A DNA stretch of 64,000 bases from Hyphomicrobium facile (GTDB lineage Bacteria; Pseudomonadota; Alphaproteobacteria; Rhizobiales; Hyphomicrobiaceae). The position numbers and the translations under genes are program-made. The stretch lies in the NCBI RefSeq assembly GCF_900116175.1, contig NZ_FPCH01000002.1, positions 1,116,001-1,180,000 of the forward strand. The letters run 5' to 3'. Under the pieces are notes generated by a model, which saw only the letters and a list, made by a program, of their open reading frames with translations, did no database searches and was not told the origin of the DNA. The number at the start of each line of letters is the position of its first letter. The first letter of the stretch is position 1. Positions 31,212 through 41,508 of the stretch are shown here, one piece after another.

Positions 31212-31236
31212 TAAACGGCGTGGCGCCAAATCAGTT
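31212..31236 (-). promoter_or_regulatory. EcfG (general stress sigma factor) type promoter, exact consensus
   Basis: Read leftward the sequence is GGAAC-N16-CGTT, which equals the alphaproteobacterial EcfG consensus. The -10 element ends 47 nt before the response-regulator start at 31165. Confidence 0.6.
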
Positions 31237-31361
31237 CCAGCAAAAGGCGTGCTCCACGGATTAAACTCAAACGATCCGTCGGCGCAATATTGCTGCTCGA
31301 TGCGCCGCGGCCGTCAAAGTCCTGAGATTGAAAGATAGCGACCGACGCTTCTTATCCTCTA

Positions 31362-37881: not shown

Positions 37882-38151
37882 ATGAGTGAGTGCGAACAGG
37901 ACGACGCCCGGAAGGCGTTTTTATTCGTCAATTCGGCTCGCACGCTGAGCGCTGTTACGCTCGATCGCGAGGGGCGCAACTTACCGCATCCCGGAATTTG
38001 CCGATGGAATTTCAGAGGTGAATTCCCGTTGGGCGTGCAGGAAGTGACGCCCTTCGGTGTGGACCCGGAACCGATCCTTCGCGGAGTTGCCGCGAATGGT
38101 TATTTCGTTTGGCCCGTTGAAAATTTGCAGCCGTTTGGAACATCGCAGTGA
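37882..38151 (+). CDS. Small hypothetical protein (89 aa)
   Basis: An ORF beginning MSECEQDDARKAFLFVNSAR and ending in WPVENLQPFGTSQ, with a GEFPLGVQEVTPFGVDPEPI middle section. It has no membrane segment or signal and no family that I recognise. In-frame ATG codons also occur at 37855 and 37690, but the protein-like region begins near 37882. It lies divergent from the CHASE3 kinase gene. A possible antisense reading (38394-37981) is less convincing. Confidence 0.5.
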   Translation: MSECEQDDARKAFLFVNSARTLSAVTLDREGRNLPHPGICRWNFRGEFPLGVQEVTPFGVDPEPILRGVAANGYFVWPVENLQPFGTSQ

Positions 38152-38386
38152 GTTTGCCCAGTGATTTTGAGTAACTTGAGTAACCGGCGTCTTCCGCCAC
38201 CGGAGTTCGCGCTCGCTGACGAGCGTCAGAAGCACTGGGTCGAGATCTTCAAAGATCGCGTGACCGAACCTCTGAAGGAAGTCTTGCAAGAAGATATGGA
38301 TTGGATGACGTCTCGCCCGATCCTCGAGCGGCTCAACCGCTTGCACGATGTCGAACAGGCGCACAGAGGCAATACCCGTCCGGATA

Positions 38387-38488
38387 TCATCCATCCTTCG
38401 ACCCGAAGACCAGGATCCAGCAAATAATTGCGCCGGCTATCGACTGCAGGGCGAGGATGATTTCAAGCGGCAAGAGGTTCGGCGTCAT
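38387..38488 (-). CDS. Tiny single-helix membrane protein (33 aa) under an EcfG-type promoter
   Basis: An ORF from ATG at 38488 to TGA at 38387. The product starts MTPNLLPLEIILALQSIAGA, continues as one hydrophobic helix (about residues 6-28) and ends with the hydrophilic tail FGSKDG. It is preceded by GGGAAAGGA at ideal distance, and a consensus EcfG promoter (38517-38541) lies just upstream, leaving a leader of only about 20-25 nt. The alignment of promoter, ribosome site and start is the main evidence. It resembles the small stress membrane peptides found in many bacteria, but no family is recognised. It overlaps the end of an opposite-strand ORF that is probably not coding. Confidence 0.6.
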   Translation of the reverse strand: MTPNLLPLEIILALQSIAGAIICWILVFGSKDG

Positions 38489-38516
38489 GGCGTTTTTCCT
38501 TTCCCGTTCCTGAAAA

Positions 38517-38541
38517 AACGGCGCGGCGCTATGTCAGTTCC
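38517..38541 (-). promoter_or_regulatory. EcfG (general stress sigma factor) type promoter, exact consensus
   Basis: Read leftward: GGAAC (38541-38537), 16 bases, CGTT (38520-38517). Both elements and spacing match the alphaproteobacterial EcfG consensus, and a ribosome site plus the 33-aa ORF follow directly. Confidence 0.65.
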
Positions 38542-38610
38542 AGCTCTGCCAAAAGGCCGTTGTGGATAAGCGCTGAATGTCTCGGAGGCCTCGAGGATCT
38601 GCCTGAATAA

Positions 38611-38646
38611 AAAAGCGTGCGGCCGATCTTTCGTCCGCACGCTTTT
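38611..38646 (-). terminator. Rho-independent terminator after the GlsB-like gene
   Basis: A perfect 12-bp stem: AAAAGCGTGCGG (38611-38622) with CCGCACGCTTTT (38635-38646) and a 12-base loop. On the minus strand the stem is followed by a run of six T, 21 nt beyond the end of the gene at 38668. Confidence 0.85.
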
Positions 38647-38667
38647 CATTTCACAAGTCGATCGTTC

Positions 38668-38922
38668 TTAAGCGCGTCGCACCAGGCCCACGACAAAGAG
38701 AAGGATGAGCGATCCGACTACGGCGGCCACGATGTTTCCGGCTGTCGATTCCGTATAAAGCCCCATGCTTTGCGCGAGAATGCCGGCGATACCGGCGCCG
38801 AGAATGCCGATGATGATGTTGCCGATCAATCCGAAGCCATACCCCTTGACGAGAAGACCCGCGAGCCACCCCGCTATTGCACCGATAACTATCCAGGCAA
38901 GAATCGATTCTGGCGCAAGCAT
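38668..38922 (-). CDS. GlsB/YeaQ/YmgE-family stress membrane protein
   Basis: An 84-aa membrane protein starting at the ATG at 38922 behind GGAGGATC. Three hydrophobic, glycine-rich helices are visible (AWIVIGAIAGWLAGLLVKG, IIIGILGAGIAGILA, and VAAVVGSLILLFVVGLV), the standard layout of the transglycosylase-associated/GlsB family. Members are induced by envelope or general stress; their biochemical role is unknown. An EcfG-like site with one mismatch lies 43-68 nt upstream, and a strong terminator follows, so it is a monocistronic stress gene. Confidence 0.9.
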   Translation of the reverse strand: MLAPESILAWIVIGAIAGWLAGLLVKGYGFGLIGNIIIGILGAGIAGILAQSMGLYTESTAGNIVAAVVGSLILLFVVGLVRRA

Positions 38923-38964
38923 ATGATCCTCCGTGTTGTGAGCTGCTGCCGATAAGCCTCCATC

Positions 38965-38990
38965 AATGCCTAGACGCGTCATTAAGTTCC
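38965..38990 (-). promoter_or_regulatory. EcfG-like promoter candidate upstream of the GlsB-like gene
   Basis: Read leftward: GGAAC-N17-CATT, one base from consensus, 43 nt before the start codon at 38922. Confidence 0.4.
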
Positions 38991-39120
38991 ACGACGCACG
39001 GAACCGGCCGCTCAGTGCAGCGTATGCGACACCATTTTTAGGCGTTCGCCTGACGGCACTGGGCGCGTACGAATTCAGTAAAACAGGGAATTCGGTTTCG
39101 CGCAGCGCGCTGAACGACCC

Positions 39121-40086
39121 TCAAATCAGCTCGTGAACGCTGAACTGCTTGTTGGCGTCGGTCCAAACGCGGCTGGCTTTCCAACCGGCCTTCTCGGCAA
39201 GATCGCGGAACTCCGGAACCGTATATTTATATGAATTCTCGGTGTGGATGCTTTCGCCGGGCGAGAAATGAAACGGACGGCCGCAAGCCATGATGTCCTG
39301 CGCGCGATCCGTCACGAGATGCATTTCGATGCGGCCTGCGCGCGGATTATAGAGTGCCTTATGGTGGAATGCTTCCGGATCGAAAGTGCCGCCGAGTTCG
39401 CGATTGATGCGCACGAGCAGGTTCAAATTGAAGTCGGCGGTGACACCGGCCGCGTCATTGTAGGCGCGGATAAGGACGCGCGGATCTTTCTTCAAATCGA
39501 CGCCGATAATCAGTCGTCCGCCCTGTCCCAGAACTTTCCTGAAGTTCGACAGCAGTCCAACCGCTTCCTTTGGCGCGAGGTTTCCGATGGTCGATCCCGG
39601 AAAAAATCCTGTTATGCGCGAATTCGAAAATTCGTCTGGAAGCGCCACCAGCTTTGAAAAATCGGCAACGATCGGCCGGATCTCGAGCGCGGGATAGCGC
39701 TCGACCAAGCGTGCTGCGGCGTCAGCCAATGCCGCTTCGGAAACATCCAACGGAACATAGACGACGCGATCAGAGACGCGGTCGAGAAGGATCTCGGTCT
39801 TGACGCTCGAGCCTGAACCAAATTCGAGAAGTACGTCGCCGCCGGAAAATCCCTCAACGATCTCCGAAGCACATGTTTGGAGGATTCCGATCTCTGTCCG
39901 CGTCGGGTAATATTCAGGAAGGTGCGTAATTTCTTCGAACAGGCTGCTACCGCGTGCATCGTAAAAATAGCGGCATGGAAGTGTCTTCTGCGTTTGCGAC
40001 AATCCTTCGATGACGCTCAGCCCGAAGTCGTCGGAAATCGTCGTATCGCTTGCCGGCAACCTTTCAAGCGTTGGCATGTGACGCAT
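39121..40086 (-). CDS. egtD: L-histidine N(alpha)-methyltransferase (ergothioneine biosynthesis)
   Basis: A 321-aa SAM-dependent enzyme that trimethylates histidine to hercynine, the first step to ergothioneine. Recognisable segments are KTLPCRYFYDARGSSLFEEI, the PEYYPTRTEIGIL substrate region, VLLEFGSGSSVKTEILLD (SAM binding), GFFPGSTIGNLAPKEA and IGVDLKKDP. The ATG at 40086 overlaps the egtB stop codon as TAATG, so the two are translationally coupled; the long reading to 40458 lies inside egtB. Length is typical of EgtD. Ergothioneine protects against oxidative stress and is made from histidine, SAM and a thiol donor. Confidence 0.95.
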   Translation of the reverse strand: MRHMPTLERLPASDTTISDDFGLSVIEGLSQTQKTLPCRYFYDARGSSLFEEITHLPEYYPTRTEIGILQTCASEIVEGFSGGDVLLEFGSGSSVKTEILLDRVSDRVVYVPLDVSEAALADAAARLVERYPALEIRPIVADFSKLVALPDEFSNSRITGFFPGSTIGNLAPKEAVGLLSNFRKVLGQGGRLIIGVDLKKDPRVLIRAYNDAAGVTADFNLNLLVRINRELGGTFDPEAFHHKALYNPRAGRIEMHLVTDRAQDIMACGRPFHFSPGESIHTENSYKYTVPEFRDLAEKAGWKASRVWTDANKQFSVHELI

Positions 40087-41426
40087 TACTCGACCTCCGC
40101 CGCGAGGCGCAAGCCGAGGAACTGCCAGCGCTGATGGGGATAAAAGAAGTTGCGATACGTCGCGCGCGAATGGCCGGACGGCGTTGCGCACGACGACCCG
40201 CGCAGGACGTGCTGTCCGACCATGAATTTTCCGTTGTATTCGCCTATCGCACCCGCCGGCGGCCGATACCCCGGATAGGGAAGATACGCGCTTGCCGTCC
40301 ATTGCCAGACCTGGCCGAAAAGCTGCTTCGGCCCGGCACCTTGCGAGGCATCGCTTCTTTGTGGCCGCAGCACGCCCTGCGACTTCTCCATCTGTTTGGA
40401 AGTCGAGTTGGCTGCGACTTCCCATTCGAATTCCGTCGGCAAACGCTTGCCTGCCCACCGCGCGAAGGCATCAGCCTCGTAATAGGAGACGTGCGTAACG
40501 GGCTCGGCGTGCGCGACGGGAAGCAATCCCTGGAGCGACATCTGCGACCAGCCACCGTCTGACCTCTCCCAGTAGAGCGGGCTCTCCCAGCCCTCTCTAT
40601 TGACTGCCGACCAGCCGTCCGCCAGCCACAACGTTGGCGTCGCGTAGCCGCCGTCCTCCATGAATGCGAGCCATTCAGCGTTGGTCACTAACCTATTCGC
40701 GAGCTTGAACGGCTGCACCAGCGCGTCGTGCGACGGGAGCTCGTTGTCCCACGAATAGCCTTCGCCGGAATGACCTATGCGCACAATGCCGCCCGGGAAT
40801 TCCGTCCAGTTCAGCGGCGTCGGCTCGGCGGTGTCTAGCCCGACGGGTTGCCCCTGATAGGCGGGACGCAGCGGATTAGATGCAAAGAGCGCGAGAATAT
40901 CTGTGAGCAGCAGCTCTTGATGTTGCTGCTCGTGATTGATGCCGATTTCGATGAGCCGGGTGACTTCGTCACGATCGATATCATTTCGCGCGAGAAGACG
41001 ACGAAGAGCATCATCGACGTGCTTACGATACGCGAAGACTTTCTCCGACGTTGGCCGGGTCAGCAGACCTCGCTTCGGACGAGGATGACGCGGCCCCAGC
41101 GTTTCGTAATAAGAGTTAAAGCAGTAATTGAAATTGTCGTCGAAGATCCGGTAATCGGCCAAGTGGGGCCTTAAAGCGAAATTCTCGAAAAACCAAGTTA
41201 CATGCGCCAGATGCCATTTGGTGGGACTGGCATCATCGGACGCTTGCACCACCATGTCTTCAGCCGACAGCGGTTCGGCGAGGTCAAGAGAGTGTTGCCG
41301 CGTTTCGAACAGACGAGCTTCCAGCGCTTCGCTGACACGTACGCTCGCTCCGCCGTCAGCTTGCGAAGACGAAACGTTGCTTTGGTTTGGGGTAGCCTTT
41401 TCGGCCGCAGGATGTTCCAAACGCAA
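40086..41426 (-). CDS. egtB: Ergothioneine sulfoxide synthase EgtB (hercynine oxygenase)
   Basis: A 446-aa iron enzyme joining hercynine with a cysteine-type thiol using O2. The N-terminal DinB-like domain supplies the iron ligands: His72 in KWHLAHVTWFF and the NHEQQHQE motif (His165, His169). The C-terminal half is an FGE-sulfatase/C-type-lectin-like domain (HVSYYEADAFARWAGKRLP, then VLRGSSCATPSGHSRATYRN). The first codon is TTG at 41426 with only a weak ribosome site, so the exact start is uncertain. It is followed directly by egtD. No egtC, egtE or egtA gene is in the window; the final C-S lyase step must be encoded elsewhere. A consensus EcfG promoter lies 57 nt upstream. Confidence 0.93.
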   Translation of the reverse strand: MRLEHPAAEKATPNQSNVSSSQADGGASVRVSEALEARLFETRQHSLDLAEPLSAEDMVVQASDDASPTKWHLAHVTWFFENFALRPHLADYRIFDDNFNYCFNSYYETLGPRHPRPKRGLLTRPTSEKVFAYRKHVDDALRRLLARNDIDRDEVTRLIEIGINHEQQHQELLLTDILALFASNPLRPAYQGQPVGLDTAEPTPLNWTEFPGGIVRIGHSGEGYSWDNELPSHDALVQPFKLANRLVTNAEWLAFMEDGGYATPTLWLADGWSAVNREGWESPLYWERSDGGWSQMSLQGLLPVAHAEPVTHVSYYEADAFARWAGKRLPTEFEWEVAANSTSKQMEKSQGVLRPQRSDASQGAGPKQLFGQVWQWTASAYLPYPGYRPPAGAIGEYNGKFMVGQHVLRGSSCATPSGHSRATYRNFFYPHQRWQFLGLRLAAEVE

Positions 41427-41482: not shown

Positions 41483-41508
41483 AACGCCTTCCCATCCTGG
41501 ATGGTTCC
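41483..41508 (-). promoter_or_regulatory. EcfG (general stress sigma factor) type promoter for egtBD, exact consensus
   Basis: Read leftward: GGAAC (41508-41504), 17 bases, CGTT (41486-41483). It lies in the 117-nt gap between the VOC-family gene and egtB and points at egtB. Confidence 0.6.

Follow-up and report, generated by a model that had tools for sequence, protein, structure and literature searches.

The window analyzed here is a stretch of 64,000 nucleotides of Hyphomicrobium facile DNA, and the gene that concerns us within it is too short for most gene finders. It lies on the minus strand among genes of the ergothioneine type, facing a convergent ORF with which it overlaps. These are the features.

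38161..38427, plus strand: convergent, conserved 88-aa ORF without a Pfam match, which shares 41 bp at its 3' end with the small gene
38387..38488 (stop codon included), minus strand: 33-aa ORF, predicted single-span membrane protein (homologs, pN/pS, hydropathy, helix)
38497..38502, minus strand: AAAGGA, likely ribosome-binding site by its sequence, 8 nt before the ATG
38517..38541, minus strand: EcfG-type promoter GGAAC-N16-CGTT, by sequence and by an EcfG-like promoter at every homolog
38561..38569, minus strand: TTATCCACA, resembling a DnaA box, separated by 19 nt from the GGAAC downstream; one of 16 exact copies in the genome
38610..38647, minus strand: terminator-like hairpin with a T-run, between the glsB-like gene and the small gene
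38668..38922, minus strand: GlsB/YmgE-like gene (Transgly_assoc, PF04226, by Pfam), a neighbor and not a conserved partner
38965..38990, minus strand: EcfG-like GGAAC-N17-CATT upstream of the glsB-like gene, the same in all three genomes with this glsB copy
39121..40140, minus strand: egtD-like gene (Methyltransf_33 by Pfam; the coordinates delimit the segment submitted to Pfam)
40086..41426, minus strand: egtB-like gene (FGE-sulfatase and DinB_2 domains, by Pfam)
41483..41508, minus strand: EcfG-type promoter GGAAC-N17-CGTT upstream of egtB

The region is likely a stress cluster, to judge from its sequence, because EcfG-like promoters also precede egtB (GGAAC-N17-[CT]GTT in 5/5 orthologous clusters) and the glsB-like gene (3/3). 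The strong hairpin ahead of the small gene, with -25.9 kcal/mol and z -6.3, suggests that this gene needs a promoter of its own. An earlier, sequence-only reading of the DNA had set the small gene beside a GlsB-like stress gene. The GlsB-like gene is indeed next door. As a functional partner it fell away: by the ORF lists it is found at three of the five orthologous sites and at none of the four other homolog sites, and the terminator-like hairpin stands between the two genes.

The small ORF runs on the minus strand from an ATG at 38488 to a stop codon that ends at 38387, and its product is MTPNLLPLEIILALQSIAGAIICWILVFGSKDG. The promoter (38541-38517), the AAAGGA (38502-38497), the ATG and the 33-aa frame are all where the sequence-only reading had put them. 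That reading proposed a single hydrophobic helix, and both hydropathy and structure prediction bear it out: the highest Kyte-Doolittle mean over 19 residues is 2.51, and AlphaFold2 returns one helix, residues 6-28 (mean pLDDT 87, pTM 0.45). With one predicted transmembrane helix, the product has the hallmark of a single-span small membrane protein, a class limited to proteins under about 50 aa, which three of the homologs exceed (54-62 aa). The ortholog in genome G015 carries RR within the helix and has a hydropathy of 1.87. No Pfam or NCBIfam family matches the small protein. A match to PsbJ, a photosystem II subunit, was not convincing (E 0.015 in Pfam and 0.023 in NCBIfam, from one of eight members each), and those to sulfate permease and pyruvate dehydrogenase were weak and scattered. 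Membership of the GlsB/YmgE family was set aside as well; the PF04226 match belongs to the neighbor only.

When the single sequence was used as query, 9 of the 22 genus genomes gave a homolog (E 4e-17 to 0.12). A profile search recovers the same nine at E 7.2e-18 or better, a score that is partly circular, the profile having been built from them. Spread over three kinds of chromosomal site, they amount to three related groups and not to nine independent cases. Five are near-orthologs of 33 aa at a common site (the H. facile genome, G000, with G020, G002, G013, and G015). The other four, of 47-62 aa, have diverged, and both their sites and their neighbors differ: those of G006, G011, and G016 are flanked by a UPF0114-type ORF (assigned by a Pfam run on the G016 copy) and an ORF reading as secA, and that of G003 lies elsewhere. 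The diverged relatives keep the N(L/I)LPL(E/Q)I(I/V)L start of the 33-aa orthologs and end in K/R-rich C-terminal tails. Invariant among the homologs are N4, L6, P7, L8, I10, L12, L26, and G29.

Conservation of the frame was a comparison that could have gone against the gene. It did not. The frame is kept in the relatives, and synonymous changes predominate among the five orthologs, with pN/pS of 0.00-0.28 across 10 pairs that are not independent. The same holds for the first 20 codons, outside the overlap with the antisense ORF, where pN/pS is 0.00-0.37. Between G000 and G020 there are five synonymous changes and no nonsynonymous one, for which P is 0.001 if the sequence evolves neutrally. 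Some pairs fall short of significance by themselves: G000-G002 gives P 0.10 for the whole ORF and 0.27 for the first 20 codons, and G000-G015 gives P 0.08 for the first 20 codons. The computation shows sequence-level purifying selection on the 33-aa frame, which is almost certainly a real protein-coding gene as far as sequence can tell.

How far does the gene reach? The profile matched 13 of 103 genomes of the family at E up to 0.1. Nine are the homologs already described, and four partial matches (E 0.003-0.08; G014 within the genus, and G022, G119, and G073) were set aside on score. Among 397 genomes of the order, with at most 16 candidates scored per genome and seven genomes of the genus listed, there were two matches, both within the genus. 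A DNA pattern for promoter plus peptide found 19 stretches across 84,980 species: six in genomes of the genus already counted and 13 in unrelated phyla, which we take to be chance. The gene has so far been found in one genus only, and 13 of the 22 genomes there yielded no homolog. In G018, the EgtD of which is 79% identical to that of the query, as in G013 and G015, the small gene is without its promoter and its 5' half through loss, and an apparent 3' remnant lies beside the conserved convergent ORF, a 90-aa relative of the 88-aa ORF. Because of these absences and the loss in G018, the small gene must be dispensable.

The promoter travels with the gene. GGAA[CT]-N16/17-[CT]GTT precedes all nine homologs, starting about 48-56 nt before the ATG; six have strict GGAAC with CGTT and the remaining three have one base changed. 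Genome-wide, GGAAC-N16/17-CGTT matches 121 times vs 94 for a reversed-pattern control, so near to chance that the case rests on conservation. The sequence-only reading was right about the sequence and placement of the promoter, and gave too much weight to the match taken alone. NepR is encoded in 22/22 genomes of the genus and twice in that of H. facile, where both copies adjoin ORFs that we read by eye as EcfG and PhyR; divergent EcfG consensus sites also lie within one of these phyR-nepR regions (G000:C4:230 kb). The small gene accordingly has the features of an EcfG regulon member, namely the promoter (9/9 relaxed, 6/9 strict) in a genome encoding NepR with EcfG- and PhyR-like ORFs, and this supports the earlier idea of a small membrane peptide behind a stress promoter. 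Transcription by EcfG is very probable on these grounds, and stress would presumably induce the peptide, which would insert into the membrane.

Some smaller observations on these promoters were made by eye. A further GGAAC-N16-CGTT at 31214-31238 on the minus strand, with a spacer like that of the small gene, stands before an ORF reading as a response regulator. Inverted repeats straddle the -10 and the likely start site in L106-L108 and L111-L114, an example being CCGTTTGT-TTGAC-ACAAACGG in L113, and are not evident in L109 and L110. They are possibly an operator.

What the earlier description of the promoter overlooked, having found the EcfG motif, is a conserved DnaA-box-like element upstream. 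TT[A/G/T]TCCACA occurs in all nine homolog promoters, in a single orientation and on the same strand as the promoter. It stands 19 nt from GGAAC in eight and 29 nt in the ninth, which is about one helical turn more. When the eight promoters of equal spacing are aligned over 80 nt upstream, eight of the nine columns in the box are invariant vs 1 of 71 elsewhere, and identity between groups A and B elsewhere upstream is 24-25%, the random level. Across the nine promoters only the third box position varies (A, G, or T). A G or T at that position is tolerated in a DnaA box. The 9-mer TTATCCACA is given as a DnaA box in the portion of PMC8203912 consulted. Its exact sequence has 16 copies in the 4.4-Mb genome vs 6 for the reversed control. 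Of the genome's 121 EcfG-consensus sites, some of which are surely chance, 34 were compared, and the small-gene promoter alone among them had a box at -28, the next best having three mismatches there. The promoter thus has the conserved DnaA box nearby that is expected of DnaA regulation, and the box would be centered near -59 if the -35 lies at its usual place. Class-I activators sit at about -59. That the element is functional is in our judgment highly likely from its conservation, and that DnaA is the protein bound to it is, by its sequence, slightly favored.

Box and EcfG promoter together are not a common promoter type of the genus; the excess over control consists of the small-gene family and one other family. 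In the 22 genomes, TCCACA lies 9-39 nt before GGAAC-N16/17-YGTT at 19 places vs 12 in the control: eight belong to the small-gene family, three to a second family of small membrane proteins, and eight to others, one of which (L079) has the full TTATCCACA with no evident conserved small ORF. At the exact 19-nt spacing, the 103 family genomes hold 13 places vs 2 in the control (seven from the small-gene family, three from the second family, and three others). A looser box-plus-EcfG pattern, in which the -10 was poorly defined (STT), matched 39 places in the genus vs 56 for its control. A side observation comes from L095, in a genome of another genus of the family (G061): at about 1498-1715, TTGTCCACA is followed after 19 nt by GGAAC-N17-CGTT and further on by a hydrophobic ORF of 31 aa, MRALNALLTVAGFAAILAILVFTSAVVAIGG, adjoining an ORF that reads as a transposase. 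The arrangement may be chance.

The second family, which came to light in the pattern search, is unrelated to the first. It has no Pfam match and occurs in 18 of the 22 genomes, the weakest three of these being doubtful; the H. facile copy is L201 (G000:C3:205951-206193). Fourteen of its 15 better loci (L195-L209) have an EcfG-like promoter. The element upstream is longer, CTATCCACATCTGGACGAA, with a TCCACA-like core often at -28, the position of the small-gene box. At -28, eight of the 15 loci have a 9-mer one mismatch from TT[A/G/T]TCCACA and L203 has two mismatches; at -38, L204 has one and L201 two. Four of the 15 have no box in phase or are not scorable: the one-mismatch copy of L200 is out of phase, at -36, no box is seen in L196 or L205, and L198 cannot be scored. 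The parallel between the families is suggestive, not proof.

This parallel cuts both ways, since CTATCCACATCTGGACGAA is longer than the DnaA-box 9-mer and a protein other than DnaA is therefore possible for both families. The small gene could then be an ordinary EcfG-dependent small membrane protein gene, with its TTNTCCACA element bound by some other activator that reads the core common to the two families; six of the 15 second-family loci have TCCACA at the very same -28. We regard this as a real if lesser prospect. Against it, the small-gene boxes depart from the 9-mer of PMC8203912, in the portion cited above, at the third position only, and a crude ORF caller puts 10 of the genome's 16 exact copies outside ORFs.

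Two further explanations take the small ORF to be incidental or a product of chance. An EcfG-driven small RNA, ReC64, is described in the part of PMC3892343 consulted, so what is conserved might be an EcfG-driven RNA, either regulatory or antisense to the convergent 88-aa ORF, with the small ORF incidental. A scan of 37900-39200 found no minus-strand terminator behind the small ORF, and the transcript could therefore run antisense to the 88-aa ORF; the same scan also misses the long-loop hairpin at 38610..38647. An RNA of this kind would not explain selection at the codon level that extends outside the overlap with the 88-aa ORF, nor why four homologs that sit elsewhere, among different neighbors, retain the frame and the N-terminal motif, and we think it improbable. 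That a chance ORF happens to lie beside a chance promoter match draws on the near-chance frequency of the EcfG consensus alone, and is made extremely unlikely by the conservation of frame, promoter, and upstream element among the homologs.

We come down, with reasonable but not great confidence, in favor of an EcfG-transcribed single-span inner-membrane peptide, the promoter of which is also tuned by DnaA or by another reader of the same site. Under stress, PhyR would free EcfG from NepR, and EcfG-RNA polymerase would start a short-leader mRNA near 38510. DnaA, or whichever other protein reads the site, would bind at about -59 and raise or gate transcription, so that output of the small gene would depend on both stress and replication state. 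The peptide would insert as one helix, probably N-out/C-in because of the K/R-rich C-terminal tails of the diverged homologs. It may then act on an inner-membrane complex as a small accessory subunit or as a modulator, with the conserved N-terminal half (N-L-L-P-L-E/Q-I-I-L) as the contact surface; by analogy, we would give a role as membrane-complex modulator even chances. The EcfG step draws on promoter conservation, the box step on conservation and phase, and the peptide step on hydropathy, the AlphaFold2 helix, and analogy. From these we infer expression, membrane location, and DnaA binding.

Several known systems come close to parts of this arrangement. The promoter GGAAC-N16-CGTT agrees with the motif reported for Rhizobium etli EcfG1 (PMC3892343, in the part consulted), and NepR genes are present as in other EcfG/PhyR/NepR systems. 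What sets it apart is the DnaA-box-like element, conserved at a set distance ahead of the -35; our literature search found nothing joining EcfG with DnaA boxes, nor anything on Hyphomicrobium small ORFs. As for the cluster, we take a methyltransferase and a TIGR03440 protein of Sphingomonas melonis to be EgtD and EgtB. In the portion of PMC6599016 consulted, this 'probable methyltransferase' and 'TIGR03440 family protein' (rows 0597 and 0598) are EcfG-dependent (log2 ratio -3.9 and -4.0), with motif scores of 6.0 and 6.6, whereas that paper counts a gene as a direct target only from 10 upward. SEP6 and SEP16 of Sinorhizobium meliloti, as described in the part of PMC10117765 consulted, resemble the 33-aa protein in having one predicted hydrophobic helix and being short enough for annotation to miss; the 33-aa protein differs in that it belongs to no Pfam or NCBIfam family and was not found outside its genus in the genome searches described above. 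The DnaA-regulated promoters nrdAB and dnaA (PMC8203912, same portion) likewise have the 9-mer upstream. They differ from the small-gene promoter, where a single putative box stands at a constant helical position relative to an ECF-sigma promoter.

We have, then, a conserved and selected small-protein gene outside all Pfam and NCBIfam models, in a likely stress cluster with ergothioneine-type genes, and its promoter is short enough for complete dissection. If DnaA reads the upstream site, this would be a direct and testable link between the alphaproteobacterial general stress response and replication control. More speculatively, and we would not call it likely, the less so for the four second-family loci that have no box in phase or are not scorable, the two unrelated families could be the first members of a promoter class of the genus that integrates EcfG with a class-I-placed, helically phased DnaA and drives small single-span membrane proteins. 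If true, such an EcfG-DnaA promoter class would couple stress output at the membrane to replication state.
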